A DNA stretch of 15,450 nucleotides, taken from positions 1-15,450 of the forward strand of contig DGGY01000023.1 of the NCBI GenBank assembly GCA_002392405.1, written 5' to 3'. The stretch comes from Treponema sp. UBA3862 (GTDB taxonomy: Bacteria > Spirochaetota > Spirochaetia > Treponematales > Treponemataceae). The notes under the pieces are model-generated. The model did no database searches and was not told where the DNA came from. It was given only the letters and a program-made list of their open reading frames with translations. The translations under genes and the position numbers were made by a program. Below are positions 136 to 14,743 of this stretch, piece by piece (the stretch's first letter is position 1; every line of letters starts with the position of its first letter).

Positions 136-185
136 GGCTGTCCTTTTTGAAGTCTTTAATTACTTCTAGGACAGCCCCTTTTTTT
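136..185 (+). terminator. Rho-independent terminator, or right end of the upstream IS
   Basis: Arms GGCTGTCC (136-143) and GGACAGCC (169-176) pair perfectly over 8 bp. A 5-bp inner helix (GAAGT/ACTTC, 149-153 with 162-166) lies between them. The 3' arm leads into CC and seven T (179-185). An A-run (131-135) on the 5' side would also allow termination on the minus strand. It ends transcription from the transposase side and precedes the first repeat unit. Because it lies about 50 bp after the transposase stop, it might instead be the hairpin-like end of the insertion sequence. Confidence 0.75.
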
Positions 186-195
186 ATAAGCGACC

Positions 196-261
196 GGGCA
201 GCCGTGCGAGTTTTTCCGTTTTTTTGCGAAAGCAAAAAATGCGAGCCCTTTGGCGAGCAAG
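196..261 (+). repeat. 66-nt palindromic repeat, copy A
   Basis: This begins GGGCAGCCGTGCGAG and contains a T-run/A-run hairpin (TTTTTTGC, GAAA tetraloop, GCAAAAAA). It then carries GCGAG in two direct copies around CCCTTTGG. Copy A matches copy B (418-482) at all but one base, an extra A in the hairpin loop, and its first ~30 bases recur at 624-655. CGAGTTTT near the 5' side is answered by AAAACTCG at 264-271, which gives an outer stem around the hairpin. It starts 10 nt after the T-run of the terminator at 136-185. I do not recognise the family; it resembles a REP-like or MITE-like dispersed palindrome. Confidence 0.85.
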
Positions 262-347
262 TGAAAACTCGAGTTTCATCGGATGCGAAGCTTCCGATGA
301 ATACATGTACAGTAGCATGTGCTGTAGCGGTAGCCGGATCATTCTAA
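204..347 (+). CDS. Small peptide A ending TCTVACAVAVAGSF (start unresolved)
   Basis: The last 14 codons before TAA (345-347) encode TCTVACAVAVAGSF, identical to the end of the second small frame at 426-560. Ten of the 14 codons differ between them, always synonymously and including TCA versus AGT for serine. This fixes the strand, frame and stop with good confidence. The start is not fixed. GTG 204 is shared by both copies and gives 47 aa, GTG 261 gives 28 aa, and ATG 297 gives 16 aa (MNTCTV...). The ATG lies in the 3' arm of a 9-bp hairpin (275-301). None has a clear Shine-Dalgarno sequence. The end is Ala/Val-rich with two Cys (CTVAC) plus Thr and Ser. A terminator begins 24 nt after the stop. 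The function is unknown; a modified-peptide precursor, a membrane-active peptide or a leader peptide are all possible. Confidence 0.55.
   Translation: MRVFPFFCESKKCEPFGEQVKTRVSSDAKLPMNTCTVACAVAVAGSF
275..301 (+). repeat. Inverted repeat/hairpin over the ATG of peptide A
   Basis: TTCATCGGA (275-283) and TCCGATGAA (293-301) are perfect 9-bp reverse complements. The 9-nt loop can add a GC/GC pair around GAA. The 3' arm contains the in-frame ATG at 297-299, so a folded transcript would hide it. Copy B has a different, shorter hairpin at the matching place (498-514: GCAAACC / GGTTGC, loop GCCA). The position is therefore conserved while the sequence is not. Confidence 0.7.
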
Positions 348-370
348 TTGAGTTCTTGTAACTAAAACGA

Positions 371-401
371 AGACATCTCCTTTTGGGGATGTCTTTTTTT
401 T
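371..401 (+). terminator. Rho-independent terminator of peptide unit A
   Basis: AGACATCTCC (371-380), loop TTTT, then GGGGATGTCT (385-394) form a 10-bp stem with one G-U pair, followed by eight T. It starts 24 nt after the peptide A stop. Its stem sequence differs from those of the neighbouring terminators, so the units have diverged there. Confidence 0.92.
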
Positions 402-417
402 ATAGGCGCATGATACA

Positions 418-482
418 GGGCAGCCGTGCGAGTTTTTCCGTTTTTTTGCGAAGCAAAAAATGCGAGCCCTTTGGCGAGCAAG
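418..482 (+). repeat. 66-nt palindromic repeat, copy B
   Basis: This copy is 65 nt long and matches copy A except for one missing A in the hairpin loop (GCGAAGC instead of GCGAAAGC). The outer stem is better here than in A: CGAGTTTTTCC near the 5' side pairs with GGAAAAA-T-CTCG up to about 493, over 11 bp with one bulged base. It starts 16 nt after the T-run of the terminator at 371-401, and 222 nt downstream of the copy A start. Confidence 0.85.
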
Positions 483-560
483 GAAAAATCTCGTGAAGCA
501 AACCGCCAGGTTGCGACTTGCACCGTTGCATGTGCAGTTGCAGTAGCTGGTAGTTTCTAA
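426..560 (+). CDS. Small peptide B ending TCTVACAVAVAGSF (start unresolved)
   Basis: This is the paralogue of the small frame at 204-347. Codons 516-557 spell TCTVACAVAVAGSF with different codons from copy A (ACT TGC ACC GTT against ACA TGT ACA GTA, and so on), then TAA at 558-560. The frame is closed upstream by TGA at 411-413. The only possible starts are GTG 426 (44 aa, chosen because it is shared with copy A) and TTG 471 (30 aa). Neither has an evident ribosome-binding site, and there is no ATG. Residues before the conserved end (KSREANRQVA) differ from copy A (KTRVSSDAKLPMN). A terminator begins 20 nt after the stop. A good AAGGA ribosome site at 480-484 serves a GTG at 493, but in another frame. 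The translated form, or whether copy B is still expressed, is uncertain. Confidence 0.5.
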   Translation: MRVFPFFCEAKNASPLASKEKSREANRQVATCTVACAVAVAGSF

Positions 561-579
561 TAAATTTAGCGTAATGCAA

Positions 580-609
580 AAGCCTTGTCGGTTTGACAGG
601 GCTTTTTTT
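580..609 (+). terminator. Rho-independent terminator of peptide unit B
   Basis: AAGCCTTGTC (580-589) pairs with GACAGGGCTT (595-604) over 10 bp with one wobble, loop GGTTT, followed by a T-run to 609. It starts 20 nt after the peptide B stop. The third repeat copy begins 15 nt after the T-run. Confidence 0.92.
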
Positions 610-623
610 ATGCACATGCTACT

Positions 624-655
624 GGGCAGCCGTGCGAGTTTCCACGTTTTTTTGC
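624..655 (+). repeat. Truncated third copy (C) of the palindromic repeat
   Basis: GGGCAGCCGTGCGAGTTT is followed by CCACGTTTTTTTGC, matching the first ~30 nt of copies A and B with a few changes (TCCACG for TTTCCG). The sequence then diverges. The frame from GTG stops at once and no third peptide end is found downstream. As with the other copies, it sits directly after a terminator T-run. Confidence 0.8.
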
Positions 656-9900: not shown

Positions 9901-10059
9901 TTCCTTAATGATGCTGATGAAATACGTTACTCTCAGGCAGAACGGTATTATAATGATGGTATGAAGGATCAGGCTTCAGCATTGATTAATGATCTCTTTA
10001 AACGAAATCCTCAGGTTTCTAAGGTAATTAAACTCAAGCGCCGTATTGAAAACATGTAG
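6904..10059 (+). CDS. Large exported helical/TPR-like protein, unknown function
   Basis: This is a 1051-aa protein starting MFELRRKVFSVLFILFCSAFMLQSQE. That is a signal peptide with cleavage near residue 26; the Cys at 17 does not sit in a good lipobox because Phe precedes it. The rest is almost entirely charged helix. TPR-like helix pairs can be seen near residues 40-80 (EYSQALEQLSLYIQKYP) and 679-710 (YLNSNKYDEARQSLSEADESY). More occur at 745-775 (YNDYYSGNFENSKHSLDEA), 825-850 and 1015-1040 (ERYYNDGMKDQASALI). Long coiled-coil stretches lie between them. It is probably a periplasmic scaffold. The next gene starts 10 nt after its stop, so the two are very likely co-transcribed and functionally linked. 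No clear Shine-Dalgarno sequence precedes ATG 6904, and TATATT at 6851-6856 is only a weak -10 candidate. The product is not known to me by name. Confidence 0.8.
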   Translation: MFELRRKVFSVLFILFCSAFMLQSQEVPEEDTEVMSLGGIDHLISISEYSQALEQLSLYIQKYPEQFDKAQKRISKILKYRNAFNLQAGELAQKMRQSAEAQNLTDEQADELDAQKMDIILALENSEKNPAQEETDLTNDARRTVRLSYYINRSNMIVNQGTALINEADSASSENYGLAFDKFREGINLKTNDSDVVYNGQEEIQVVYPDDLKRSVNAHILQVKNFSLSVKSQLENCQNLYNEYVAAVNSLDFNLASELLESVKAAFTRLASTRNTLYREGNELKKLDERARILNPGLGDTSYITFSRWAVSGVEGNPDSGMTGAVEAFFNTRIEGLKNVLYEAVLAEYKNIGTELKLDSNELFSVGDYSSVLTMRDCASGFALQSGEINSLYSKINDSRVKDFTLYNSSLAFIQDFSKKNFTDTLSVSKKVFDINEQVKNRTVVNGNFAKFGQDSLASAQSYGKQLSDIRIQAASKNTADEKLSQENYLKSQEEKGRTPVKRNTAGETVEDKKLSWTEVLELYDKIILFTEEECINQGAHVWSVLAKTYSDEADSQLAAFTLRNVEANTLLNGVEETVGEGKITKYYPTKAAQICTQLNSDIQKQKTILTGYRTTLNGGAAYSNVESTYTSSTANIDHVIASLDELTVNNNQLITTAKIKANEARIAVNEARLRFDQAVKYLNSNKYDEARQSLSEADESYKKSLLLEENDSFRREFSAKISQTDEQITVRQNEWVITTTRALITDAYNDYYSGNFENSKHSLDEASAVWEKTQAQENTEIAELMVLVKEALESTGGKEIAFSDPLYKDMGAFLNNARVHYEDGAKLFNSGKTEEGTALLKQARDETRKVQRVFPKNMQANNLNLLINKILDPAVYENNVAQKINQAKTTAGSNRVVDMQTALKDLKDLHEIIPDNKKVSDAVKELEVQLARSQQSEQIKKDMARSDALTRQAQKETNIARKVALLDEALSLNRRNTLAQKLKDQAYISNSAGKTVKNFLNDADEIRYSQAERYYNDGMKDQASALINDLFKRNPQVSKVIKLKRRIENM

Positions 10060-10069
10060 AGTGGGACAT

Positions 10070-13000
10070 ATGAAAATAAATTTTGCTGCTTTGAAAAAAT
10101 CATTAATTTCTCTCTTAACTTTGTTTTTTGTTTCATTTTCAGTTTCCGCTCAGAGCCTTTATTTTGAAAAACCTGTTCCGCTTACAGAAAAAAATACCTG
10201 CTTTCCGGTAGTCGTTAAAGGACAGAATAAAAACTATCTTTTTTATGAGGAAATCCGCTCTGGTTCACTTTATGTAGATTTAAAGATTAAAGAAGATGAC
10301 TCGGAAGAATGGTCTCCCGCAAAAACAGTAGCAGGTCCGTTCTCTTATTCAGGTGAGGTACCTGATATTTTTACAGCCGCAGTTCTGGAAAAAGGCATTA
10401 TCAGTGTTGCCGTTACACTGTCTGAGTATGAAATCGGAATCTACACCTCCTTAGACCAGGGGCAGACCTTTACTTCAGAAAAACTTGTAATGAAAGGCGA
10501 GAGAATTGTAGCTCCTCGAATTTTCAGGACAAAAAATGACGGCTTTGTTCTTTTCGTATCTCTTGGAACAGAAAATAAATTTTCAATTGCATGGACAGTA
10601 AGTTCTAACGGAAAATCCTGGTCATCTATTACACCGTTTGCACCGGCAATGGAGCTTGATAATTCCTTTTCTCCTTACCTTTGTCCGCTGCCTCAGGGAG
10701 ATATGATTGTCTTTCAGTCGCATTTTTCTGTTCCTGAGCGGCCTAAAACTTTCCAGCTCTATACGACACTTTCTACAGATAACTTAAAGTCTTTTTCTCC
10801 TGCAGTGCTTTTTACTGATGACAGCGTTACATCATCCCGCAGGGTTAATTCTTTTGTTGACTACTCAAACCAGAGTCCTGTGCTGTTTGCAGAAAACGGT
10901 TCACTCTGGTGCGCCTGGGAAAGAAATGAAGCGCGTTCAGAAAACATTTATATTTCACTTGCACAGCTCGACATTACTGGAAAAATTACGGGCAGGGGAA
11001 GGGTAAAAGAATTTTCAGATTTAAGGTCGAGTCACCGTCCGTCGTTTTTTTCTTTTGAGAAAAGCCTTTATTTAATGTGGTTTGATAATAATAACGGTGC
11101 ATATTATTCAAGAAAAAGCTCTGATAATATTTTTTCAAGTGAACGTCTAATCAAAAACAGTACAAAGGCGACATTCCCTCATCCGGTAATTTCTTCTGAT
11201 TCAAAAATTGCCTATCTCTGGCAGTTAAAAGAAGGCGCCTCAAGAATCTATGCAGTAAATCAGGATTTAACGGCACCTCCGCCGCGTCTTTCTGCTGTCA
11301 GCTTTAAGGAAAACAAAAGAGCTGTTAGTTCGAATGTTAAAATTAAAATTACAATTCCTGAAGATACCAACGGAATTTCAGGCTATGTCTGGAGTTTTTC
11401 AAAGGATAAATTCTCTGAGCCTTCGACAGATGCGCAGAATATTATAGTCGAAAACAATATCAGCTCAGGCCGCTCATATGTAATTAATGCAAATGCTGCT
11501 GAAGACGGTGAATATTACTTTAAAGCCAAAGTTCTTGATGTGGCAGGAAACTGGTCTGAAAGTGCACTTATAACTTATTACCGTGACCTGACACCGCCTC
11601 ACAAACCTTCAGTCTTTGAGTTTCTGAAAGATGAAGCAGGCTTCGTAAAAGACAGCATGTTATCTTTAAGATGGCAGAAAGACAGCCAGGATGATGATGT
11701 TGCCGGTTACAGCTGGACTTTCACAAAGGTACAGGAACTCGATTCAAAATTTAAAGATTCCCCGCAGCATCCTCTTAAAGCTTCAAAAGAAGACGTAGAA
11801 AAGTATGTAAGTTCGATTGAAGCACAGAAAAACAGCATAATTGTAAAGGCTTCAAAACCTCCTCAGTCTGTACTGACTGTCCAGGACTCAAAGCAGTTTA
11901 TTAATATGAAAAACGGCGTATACGTCTTTTCAGTTTGCGCTGTTGATGAAGTTGGTAATGTTGGTCCTGCAAAAAGTGAAGTCGTTCTGATTAATAAATA
12001 CAGGCCTTTTACTCTTGTTTCAGGTCTTCAGACAAAAAAAGACGATTACGGTGCTTTAAATATAAGTGTCTTCGGTCAGGATTTTAACTATGAAGGCTAT
12101 ATTGACCAGATTTATATAGACCGTGACGGTAAGGCACCTTATGACAGGACTTTGTACTACAGTAAAGGTGATTATAAAATTGACTCTTCAGGAAAGATTT
12201 CTCAAATCCGTGTTGATGAGCTTGATACCGGAAGATACGGAATATACCTGCATCATACTGAACGGGGTATAAGCCCTTCAAATACAGGTTTAAGTTCAAA
12301 TAAATTTATCGTTGATGAATCGGGAAGCATCAAAATTGAACATCCTTATGTCTTAAGTCCTGAATGGAAAGCCGTAACTCAGGGCAGAAGAACAGTTCAG
12401 ATAATAGATCTTCTTTTAGCAGTTCTTTTTATTCTCTGCATTGCATCTGCAGTTTTCTCATTAAGGGGAATGGCACATATTGCAAGGGAATCAGTTTTAA
12501 TTCAATCGGAAGTTACTGCGCTTTTAACAGGAGGCGTTATGCCGTTAAGTAAAAAAATCAAAGTTGAAAAATTAAAGAAACGACAGACAAGCTTAAAGCT
12601 CAAACTTACTGGCTTTACGGTTCTTCTTGTACTTGCCATTGTTACGATGGTCTCAGTTTCTCTTGGACGCAGGATGGTAAAAACTCAGCGTCAGACTCTT
12701 GTACAGAGTATGCAGGAACAGGTTGTCGTACTTCTTGAAGGTATGGCAAACTCAGTCCAGAATGCAATGAATGATGCAGTAGAAGGCGGCAGTACGGTTG
12801 GCCTTATTGACCTTGTCCGTCAGGCTGATACCTTTAAGCCGTCCCTTTACGCAACCTTAATCGGAAGGGGATTGAATAAGGGTGTCGCAGGCTTTGATTA
12901 TTTCTGGGCATCCACAGAAACAACCGCTTCAGTTGCTTCTAAACTTGATACAGATGAACCTTCCGCAGGAAAAAGCCGTTTTAATCCTGATACAATTGAA

Positions 13001-14743
13001 GCCCGGATTGCAGATGAATGTTCCGGTCTTGAACAGACTGCCCATGAAGCCGTTGATTCAATTCTCGAAGAAATTTCTAAAAAATATTCAAAAGAAAAAA
13101 AAGATGAATACACGGCTCTTTTAAACTCACTTTCAAGAAATGCAACTCAGGCTGTTCCTCAGTTTACGGAAGATACGCTTGGTTCAGAAGGTTTGATTTA
13201 CACCTTCTACTATCCGGTTTTCTACAAAAACAGTTCTGACAATAATCTTCTTCACGCTGTTTTAGTTCTTCAGGTTTCTGCAGAAGAACTTATGGTTTCC
13301 CTCAACAGGGCAAGAATGACGATTATTGTAATTGCGCTCATCGTTGCAGCCATTGCACTGGCACTGGGTGTAATCGGTTCCTGGGTTCTTGCCTCGCTGA
13401 TTGTTGAGCCGATTAAAAAACTTGTAAACCACGTAAAAGTAATTACAGATACAAAAGATAAAAAGAAACTTAAGGATTTTTCTATCAGCATAAATACCCG
13501 TGATGAAATCGGAACCCTCGGACAGGCCGTAAACGAAATGACGGACGGACTTGTAAAGGCTGCTGAAGATGAAGAAAAAGCCATGGAACAGGAAAAAATG
13601 GCCCTCGACGGTAAAGCCGTACAGCAGACCTTCCTTCCGCTTCTGACAACGGATAAAGGCGGTAAAAAGACTACCGCAGAGCTCAAGGAAAAGGATTTTC
13701 ATATTTTCGGTTATTATGAAGGTGCTGATGCCGTATCCGGGGACTATTTTGACTATAAAAAACTTGATGACCGTTTCTATGCCGTAATTAAATGCGACGT
13801 TTCAGGTCACGGAGTTCCTGCCGCCCTTATTATGACAGTAGTTGCAACGCTTTTCCGTAAGTATTTTGAAACCTGGACTTATAAAACACACGGATATTCG
13901 CTTGATAAACTTGTTGTTCAGATAAATGATTTTATTGAATCTCTCGGTGTTAAGGGAAAATTTGCAACACTGATGATATGTCTTTTTGATACAAAAACAG
14001 GTGACGTTCACATGTGCAATGCAGGTGATAATATCATTCATGTTTTTGACCAGAAAAGCCGTAAGGAAAAAGTCATAACACTTCACGAAGCACCTGCTGC
14101 AGGACCGCTTCCTTCATTTATGGTAGAAATGAAAGGCGGATTTGTCGTTGAAAAAACACATCTTAATCCTGGAGATGTCCTCTTCCTCTATACTGACGGT
14201 ATTGAAGAAGCAACCCGCTTCTTCAGGAATTCTGATTTTGAAATTACTAAATGTATGGAAAGCGGACTTAAAGAAGGTGATATACATATTAATCACAAAG
14301 TAGGGCAGGAATCTGAACAGATGGAAAGTGACCGCGTAAAGGGTATTCTTGAGGCGGTTTTAAACAGACAGAAATACCAGCTTGTTAAACATCATAATCC
14401 GCTTGGAACAGAAGACCTTACTTTTGACTTCACTTCGCTTGAAGGTAATGTAAGTGAAGCAATTATGGCACTTGCCGCAGTAGAAAAGATTTTCCGTATC
14501 TATAAAACACCTTCTGCATCAGGCAGCGTTTCACGCAATGAAGCCGGCGATGTTGTAATTGAAGGTGATGCAGTAAGGGTAGACCGCAGGATTGACCAGT
14601 TCCTTAAAATGACGTTCAGCCGTTATGATTATTACTGTTCAGGTCTTGCCGATCTTGAAGAACCTAATTATGTTTATTATACGGGTGTAAATGAAGACCC
14701 TCAGGCAGACGATCTTACTCTGCTTGCAATCAGAAAGTTATAA
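10070..14743 (+). CDS. Periplasmic-sensor SpoIIE/PP2C-type protein phosphatase with HAMP
   Basis: This is a 1557-aa membrane phosphatase. A signal peptide ends at SVSA (27). Residues 28-390 look like a sialidase-type beta-propeller, with Asp-box SLDQGQTF at 127-134 and a degenerate one near 177-184. Residues 400-700 hold two or more Ig/FN3-like modules (VAGNWSES, VDEVGNVGPA). TM helices lie at about 778-800, 846-867 and 1084-1108, with a second periplasmic sensor at 868-1083. HAMP follows at 1109-1165 (RDEIG at 1144-1148), then PP2C. The metal-site motifs are intact: GDYFD (1224-1228), DVSGHG (1243-1248), YTDG (1374-1377) and DDLTLL (1547-1552). Between YTDG and DDLTLL lie about 170 residues, much more than in RsbU-type enzymes. 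It should dephosphorylate a cytoplasmic phosphoprotein, typically a STAS anti-anti-sigma factor, but none is encoded here. ATG 10070 is chosen over ATG 10046 because it starts the signal peptide directly and avoids overlapping the preceding gene. Confidence 0.9.
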   Translation: MKINFAALKKSLISLLTLFFVSFSVSAQSLYFEKPVPLTEKNTCFPVVVKGQNKNYLFYEEIRSGSLYVDLKIKEDDSEEWSPAKTVAGPFSYSGEVPDIFTAAVLEKGIISVAVTLSEYEIGIYTSLDQGQTFTSEKLVMKGERIVAPRIFRTKNDGFVLFVSLGTENKFSIAWTVSSNGKSWSSITPFAPAMELDNSFSPYLCPLPQGDMIVFQSHFSVPERPKTFQLYTTLSTDNLKSFSPAVLFTDDSVTSSRRVNSFVDYSNQSPVLFAENGSLWCAWERNEARSENIYISLAQLDITGKITGRGRVKEFSDLRSSHRPSFFSFEKSLYLMWFDNNNGAYYSRKSSDNIFSSERLIKNSTKATFPHPVISSDSKIAYLWQLKEGASRIYAVNQDLTAPPPRLSAVSFKENKRAVSSNVKIKITIPEDTNGISGYVWSFSKDKFSEPSTDAQNIIVENNISSGRSYVINANAAEDGEYYFKAKVLDVAGNWSESALITYYRDLTPPHKPSVFEFLKDEAGFVKDSMLSLRWQKDSQDDDVAGYSWTFTKVQELDSKFKDSPQHPLKASKEDVEKYVSSIEAQKNSIIVKASKPPQSVLTVQDSKQFINMKNGVYVFSVCAVDEVGNVGPAKSEVVLINKYRPFTLVSGLQTKKDDYGALNISVFGQDFNYEGYIDQIYIDRDGKAPYDRTLYYSKGDYKIDSSGKISQIRVDELDTGRYGIYLHHTERGISPSNTGLSSNKFIVDESGSIKIEHPYVLSPEWKAVTQGRRTVQIIDLLLAVLFILCIASAVFSLRGMAHIARESVLIQSEVTALLTGGVMPLSKKIKVEKLKKRQTSLKLKLTGFTVLLVLAIVTMVSVSLGRRMVKTQRQTLVQSMQEQVVVLLEGMANSVQNAMNDAVEGGSTVGLIDLVRQADTFKPSLYATLIGRGLNKGVAGFDYFWASTETTASVASKLDTDEPSAGKSRFNPDTIEARIADECSGLEQTAHEAVDSILEEISKKYSKEKKDEYTALLNSLSRNATQAVPQFTEDTLGSEGLIYTFYYPVFYKNSSDNNLLHAVLVLQVSAEELMVSLNRARMTIIVIALIVAAIALALGVIGSWVLASLIVEPIKKLVNHVKVITDTKDKKKLKDFSISINTRDEIGTLGQAVNEMTDGLVKAAEDEEKAMEQEKMALDGKAVQQTFLPLLTTDKGGKKTTAELKEKDFHIFGYYEGADAVSGDYFDYKKLDDRFYAVIKCDVSGHGVPAALIMTVVATLFRKYFETWTYKTHGYSLDKLVVQINDFIESLGVKGKFATLMICLFDTKTGDVHMCNAGDNIIHVFDQKSRKEKVITLHEAPAAGPLPSFMVEMKGGFVVEKTHLNPGDVLFLYTDGIEEATRFFRNSDFEITKCMESGLKEGDIHINHKVGQESEQMESDRVKGILEAVLNRQKYQLVKHHNPLGTEDLTFDFTSLEGNVSEAIMALAAVEKIFRIYKTPSASGSVSRNEAGDVVIEGDAVRVDRRIDQFLKMTFSRYDYYCSGLADLEEPNYVYYTGVNEDPQADDLTLLAIRKL

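Follow-up and report, generated by a model that had tools for sequence, protein, structure and literature searches.

What are two short neighbouring blocks of DNA that spell the same peptide in different codons, and on which product would selection act to keep them alike? The question arises near the start of the window, the 15,450-nucleotide stretch of Treponema sp. UBA3862 DNA analysed here, which makes up contig C6 of an unfinished genome assembly of 1.59 Mb with 65.5 percent completeness. Positions 303–347 and 516–560 both encode TCTVACAVAVAGSF followed by a stop, with 12 of 42 sense bases in 10 of 14 codons differing and every difference synonymous; the sequence confirms that serine is written TCA in one block and AGT in the other. 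Random drift is ruled out as the source, 12 random substitutions having kept the block peptide in 0 of 200,000 simulations. A preliminary description had ascribed the pattern to selection on the encoded residues of a repeated sequence, which was upheld, and had taken the blocks for two tandem micro-genes. The feature is real and odd, but as micro-genes it is misread.

A DNA search of relatives gave matches in 26 of 97 genomes, among them places where the block closes a long reading frame (...GNNPMVGCTVACAVAVAGSF and stop). The encoded protein has 346 residues, belongs to the Pfam family GGGtGRT (PF14057, E 3.4e-182) and is present in 158 of 200 genomes of the genus. At this end, four genomes of other families have VGASVAVAVAL or VGASVAVAVAV..., and two divergent genomes of the genus have VGATVATAVAV... 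and VGATVTVAVAV...; the two cysteines are absent from all of these. A phmmer search of PDB sequences returned no solved relative. Judged by this match, each block is a GGGtGRT C-terminal end displaced from its gene, and the selected product is the C-terminus of the 346-residue protein and not a peptide of 14–45 residues.

A second copy of the tail lies 105–278 bp past the intact GGGtGRT gene in 44 of 115 loci, 31 copies being full and 13 starting at codon 5; L033, from a yak-rumen Treponema MAG, and L180, from G169, are identical over the stretches compared and are counted twice in both the 44 and the 115. Between gene tail and displaced copy pS is 0.618 and pN 0.023, the latter lowered by the acceptance of copies at no fewer than 9 of 13 residues; 37 of the 44 pairs differ by synonymous changes only, seven carry non-synonymous ones and none is identical. 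When 196 genomes were scanned with a tail-only model, tails were found in 146, and at least 30 genomes had two or more among the matches listed. Neighbouring tails among these matches lie 106–249 bp apart on one contig in 29 genomes, and G207 has tails at the ends of two contigs. G179 carries four tails, spaced 211, 204 and 211 bp, and L033 a second tail plus a decayed third, the latter read by eye. Among the four tails of G179, on contig C75 (L164), a 415-bp pair of units appears to have been duplicated recently. Contigs of several drafts break inside the GGGtGRT gene (for example G000:C16, G005, G022, G176 and G200), so that arrays are hidden; at G117:C20:48802-49904 (L155) the gene lies in two pieces (residues 3–168 and 164–346), with the break inside the gene.

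These comparisons bear directly on the details of the preliminary description. Its 14-residue identical end shrinks to 13 homologous codons plus stop (306–347 and 519–560), because the leading threonine (ACA or ACT) is the right end of the preceding element; the parent protein reads ...MVG followed directly by CTVACAVAVAGSF, without that threonine. Each block does have its own T-run hairpin, but 24 and 17 nt after the stops instead of the reported 20–24 nt. The reading frame upstream of a detached block belongs to the element and not to a gene: an in-frame start 48 nt upstream of the displaced copy is common to the 11 loci with a kind C core (the kinds are set out below) because that core is conserved, the start lies elsewhere in other loci, and 9 of 44 have no in-frame ATG, GTG or TTG after the last stop. 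Displaced copies at homologous loci have lost stop or frame in 5 of 44 cases, at odds with a maintained peptide gene; five further copies marked AAG are longer tails ending in KK with a stop following, and were not counted as losses. The expected low non-synonymous rate was found, on residues that belong to the GGGtGRT C-terminus. A Pfam scan of the nine window ORFs revealed no modification enzyme, and the blocks show neither the own start nor the conserved short ORF of a RiPP or micro-peptide gene. Short synonymous repeats should be named micro-genes with caution.

In the window, three units with kind A cores stand in a row (188–305, 405–518 and 611–655) with two displaced tails among them, and the match between their junction complements and the two local copies is only moderate (Table 1). 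The parent gene is absent from this contig; only residues 3–66 were found, at the end of contig C16, so the array's own gene is not assembled beside the window. The transposase end upstream of the array may have parted the units from the GGGtGRT gene. Its 27 residues have no Pfam match of their own, and the similar protein L141:618-956, which in G237 is encoded downstream of the tail array, matches PF13751. No Rfam family reached its gathering threshold in the window or in 10 loci. Far downstream, positions 10046–14743 encode a 1565-residue protein in which a weakly BNR-like front part accompanies HAMP and SpoIIE domains; the ORF before it, of 1051 residues, has no Pfam match.

Table 1. Features of the array at the start of the window
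Feature	Position	Strand	Basis
IS transposase C-terminus (similar to the DDE_Tnp_1_6 type), truncated at the contig start	1..84	+	22/27 residues identical to L141:618-956
Hairpin then T-run (terminator or IS end)	136..176	+	sequence
Unit 1: segment complementary to GGGtGRT gene/tail junction	188..203	+	weak: 11 and 12 of 16 against the two local copies
Unit 1: kind A palindromic core, outer stem GTGCGAG...CTCGAG, two inner hairpins	204..273	+	folds, relatives
Unit 1: second hairpin (274–301) and right end ...ACA	274..305	+	sequence
Displaced GGGtGRT tail, copy 1 (CTVACAVAVAGSF + TAA)	306..347	+	parent-gene match, sequence
Terminator-like hairpin after copy 1	372..401	+	sequence
Unit 2: junction-complementary segment	405..425	+	15/21 to either copy
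Unit 2: kind A palindromic core	426..495	+	fold; 95 percent identity to unit 1 over window 415–490
Unit 2: second hairpin and right end ...GCGACT	496..518	+	sequence
Displaced GGGtGRT tail, copy 2	519..560	+	parent-gene match, sequence
Terminator-like hairpin after copy 2	578..609	+	sequence
Unit 3: junction-complementary segment	611..631	+	18/21 to either copy
Unit 3: truncated kind A core, no tail copy after it	632..655	+	sequence

The history of the tail departs from that of the gene body. Across 81 distinct genes, tails differ at 9.13 per 42 bases versus 3.84–7.16 in six 14-codon body stretches, and AGY serine codons are found at 35/81 in tails versus 13/567 in bodies. In 13 pairs whose bodies are at most 6 of 252 bases apart, tails differ by 6.69 of 42 bases versus 0.82 expected. 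Resolved by codon in 82 close pairs, differences amount to 0–0.18 at codons −13 to −2 (five of them Met), 0.24–0.74 at codons −1 to 12 and 0.02 at codon 13. One genome's gene tail is found as the displaced copy in another, most clearly in a nested series: L118 has gene tail X; L117 has gene tail Y with X displaced; L074 has gene tail Z with Y displaced. The sequence 3' of the L074 displaced copy equals that 3' of the L117 gene tail (57/57), the sequence 3' of the L117 displaced copy matches that 3' of the L118 gene tail over 98.96 percent of 96 bases, and the L117 and L118 bodies differ at 2 of 180 positions. This series is direct evidence of tail replacement and not of copying alone. Because distant tails sit on close bodies and gene tails turn up displaced elsewhere, the units seem to bring recoded tails with them. 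Tail differences are nevertheless about as large in pairs without a displaced copy (7.58, 26 pairs) as in pairs with one (7.83, 18 pairs), which suggests that excision is common or that another process also recodes tails.

From gene to displaced copy, a unit consists of the new tail with its stop, a 3'UTR that carries a terminator in many loci (read by eye), a stretch complementary to the gene/tail junction, and a palindromic core. UTR and palindrome lie between tail and copy, accompanied by a clear complement in 26 of the 44 loci. Hairpin cores are of three kinds: A, the window's kind, with an outer stem, two inner hairpins and one further hairpin; and B and C, which form one family. Alignment of 29 dispersed B and C cores yields a predicted stem of 17 pairs, 11 of which have changes on both sides in some sequence. 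The joints, read by eye, are mostly at codon 1 or 5 of the tail, with others in L087 and L147, and the junction DNA of L092 is predicted to fold far better than shuffles (z −9.0). At other gene ends, in L012 and L015, kind A-like palindromes alternate with terminators in tandem; no displaced tail was recognised there by eye.

The junction complement scores a mean of 11.68 against its own junction versus 7.88 against those of other genomes, and exceeds the mean of the latter in 25 of 31 loci. Scored against the tails in a way that does not favour the new one, the strong complements of 26 of 44 loci fit the new junction better in 17 cases, both equally in seven and the old one better in two; taking all 44 together, these counts become 24, 13 and 7. 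Of 39 informative bases in the complement, 34 agree with the new tail and 3 with the old, and within the aligned part 142 of 143 bases match the host body. Its distance from the cut is 80–97 nt in 21 of 25 loci, the others being 60, 110, 115 and 165 nt. The segment may be a guide to the target or an end-structure of the element.

The explanation that we consider probable is that palindromic mobile units enter the 3' end of the GGGtGRT gene with a recoded tail and displace the old one. Small units, 105–278 bp from tail to tail, would enter mostly at tail codon 1 (between GGN and TGY) or codon 5 (between GCN and TGY), and in a few cases elsewhere in the tail. Each would bring a recoded tail and stop, a 3'UTR, in which a terminator was often recognised by eye, then usually a junction complement of 13–21 nt and a core of kind A, B or C whose right end would abut the old tail. 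Since the unit would bring its own tail and stop, the gene would stay intact with a new ending, while the old one, moved downstream, would be free to decay; repeated entries would stack tails in tandem. The sequences themselves establish the parent gene, the displaced and the replacement tails, stacking, the sharing of units between genomes and a common design at several genes; insertion would presumably be the work of a dedicated enzyme acting in trans on folded DNA or RNA, and spread would proceed through homologous recombination between strains. Such residence of mobile DNA in genes that stay unbroken looks unusual. If this is right, the smallest mobile DNAs of the genus enter important conserved genes by carrying the gene end along, and gene ends become exchange hotspots that leave a trail of old endings.

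Ordinary homologous recombination may instead spread array-bearing alleles by itself, with no dedicated mobility today, a reading that we regard as possible though doubtful. Strains do share units. The units after the gene tail agree at 158 of 162 bases in L117/L129 (bodies 143/150), 140 of 142 in L092/L166 (140/150), 151 of 160 in L074/L131 (140/150) and 141 of 152 in L115/L179 (144/150). The displaced tails are alike at 41 of 42 bases in L117/L129, 34 of 42 in L074/L131 and 37 of 42 in L115/L179, and 3' of them 9, 16, 11 and 12 of 30 ungapped bases are alike in L117/L129, L092/L166, L074/L131 and L115/L179, respectively. In L092/L166 the displaced tails are half-shared, with a break near codon 8, and the last ~60 body bases are identical; in L078/L181 the right flank and frame-shifted end are identical and the first part of the displaced tail differs; and perhaps the shared stretch also breaks inside the displaced tail in L117/L118. 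L159 and L171 have identical gene tails (42/42), bodies alike at 122 of 131 and displaced tails at 28 of 42. Breaks inside displaced tails fit homologous recombination better than clean insertion. Tail distance also tracks body distance poorly across the 81 genes (Spearman 0.29, versus 0.30–0.74 among body stretches), and codons −13 to 0 follow body history as poorly as the tail does (0.30). Against exchange as the whole account, differences in the 82 close pairs set in abruptly at codon −1, the left edge of the exchanged stretch, where random crossovers would slope into the body, and related cores sit at other genes with junction complements of their own. Strain-to-strain recombination seems to help spread units.

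Plain duplication, in which a palindrome inserts downstream, creates a 70–85-bp target duplication starting in the coding end and leaves the copies to drift apart, appears unlikely as the general account. The near-constant spacing of cut and complement would suit it, as would the likeness of the copies past the stop in L150, L079, L143 and L141. In 11 of 44 loci the two copies also resemble each other beyond the stop (own score above the 95th percentile of others), so that duplication fits some, but post-stop sequences are mostly unrelated, and in L165, L152 and L147 the alike sequence is the next palindrome. In the nested series, moreover, every new tail comes with a UTR of its own, and non-synonymous change is nearly absent from the detached copies, which were picked at 9 or more of 13 residues. 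A 70–85-bp target duplication at the founding insertion is possible.

Related palindromes also sit at genes other than GGGtGRT. Kind C cores were detected in 47 of 118 genomes and kind B cores in 38 of 118, mostly without the query's junction complement; at most seven candidates per genome were scored, making copy numbers lower bounds. Of the 60 loci obtained, the analysis covered 39 dispersed ones and left out 19 GGGtGRT loci, L220 being taken for one of these, and the two short loci L234 and L273. In 8 of the 39, the upstream end is repeated directly after the element and a junction complement of 9–14 nt lies 80–90 nt off, centre to centre (85–99 by the GGGtGRT measure). The hosts are glutamate dehydrogenase (L255 by Pfam; L238, L252, L256 and L270 by the same C-terminus), topoisomerase I (L225) and a DUF362/Fer4 protein (L275), both by Pfam; L276 is also among the eight. 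In a control, the direct repeat exceeded every other locus' right flank in 7 of 39 and the complement did so in 5 of 39, counts lowered because several loci share a gene. None of the other 31 clearly combines a repeat with a complement: the 20-nt repeat of L266 has no clear complement, inverted repeats in L251, L245 and L230 score 9.5–13 only 22–40 nt apart, and the remainder score 8 or less. Kind C elements in L226–L228 and L239 lie reversed at gene ends, and in L226 and L239 the reversed element end (GCC TAA) gives the last residue and stop of a GatC-like and a FabG-like gene, respectively.

A bolder reading, which we think quite unlikely, is that structured elements of ~100 nt use, genus-wide, a variable 9–21-nt arm complementary across the cut to pick the 3' ends of protein genes at a nearly constant ~85 nt; such a guided element would land harmlessly because the stretch brought or duplicated would re-supply C-terminus and terminator. 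If true, the arm would be a guide for insertion that occurs in nature, can be retargeted and differs from the guides known. Should a junction-complementary arm direct insertion, it would represent a new way of addressing DNA, and the similar spacing at four gene families makes arm-guided insertion testable.

Presence scans of genus genomes for Y1, IS110, TnpB, reverse transcriptase and integron integrase yielded none that clearly accounts for the arrays. A Y1 transposase passed the Pfam cut-off in 11 of 59 genomes and, among 14 Y1-scanned genomes with a tail array read, only in G025; that distribution does not place the units with REP/RAYT or IS200/IS605 elements. The DEDD transposase of IS110 elements, which use bridge RNA, passed its cut-off in 15 of 41 genomes chosen for arrays; IS605-type TnpB, with weak matches in 19 of the 41, was over cut-off in one, at exactly 26.3 bits. 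Reverse transcriptase, as the mark of group II introns or other retroelements, passed in 16 of 59 genus genomes. For carriage by phages or plasmids, a kind C unit had no match at E 1e-5 among 50,697 phage and 72,556 plasmid records, and an exact 20-base core was absent from the viral contigs searched.

The attC motif of integron cassettes is RYYYAAC...GTTRRRY. Three loci in the genus, L190, L192 and L194, are integrons on the chromosome whose arrayed repeats, roughly 100 bp long, have the form CATAACAAAGG...CAGTTGTTATG. That the units are cassettes set at a secondary site by IntI is very improbable: an integron integrase is over cut-off in 28 of 98 genus genomes, and stacked units with a folded complementary site recall attC, but the units show no likeness by eye to the repeats of the three integrons, and genomes that lack a full-length IntI match, G008, G009 and G021 among them, carry tail arrays too. 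Scarcely credible is the original reading as tandem micro-genes for a modified or membrane-active peptide, which the purely synonymous change between the window blocks would suit but which the large parent gene, the element-derived upstream frame and threonine, and the lost stops contradict.

The displaced tails invite comparison with known systems. None of the titles and abstract openings met in literature searches reports such units or displaced tails in Treponema. In the available text on Treponema integron cassettes (PMC3607928), stacked small units and a folded complementary site are shared with the present arrays; the units here differ in repeat sequence and have no gene cassette cargo. 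IS1272 replaces inverted repeats, which are its targets, and is a coding IS, unlike the units here; the part of its description at hand does not mention recoded gene tails (PMC5678879). With tDNA islands, as the available portion of the Islander report presents them (PMC4383910), the units share insertion into a gene, a gene made whole and an old end left displaced. Those islands rely on tyrosine integrases and usually occupy tRNA or tmRNA genes, whereas the units here lie stacked in protein genes. The gene is likewise made whole by an element-borne end, with the displaced fragment at the other edge, as in a 3'-end-restoring integrative element, but the inserts of 105–278 bp between tails are too short for an enzyme gene and contain no integrase. 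REP/GTAG-CGTC repeats are also short dispersed palindromes near gene ends, and a stop codon can come from their termini, as it does from some reversed elements here; a replacement tail and a junction complement are not mentioned in the accessible part of that account (PMC3733652). On the tests made, the units fail a defining feature of each kind; their effect resembles that of gene-restoring integrative elements, and their build that of REP-like palindromes.
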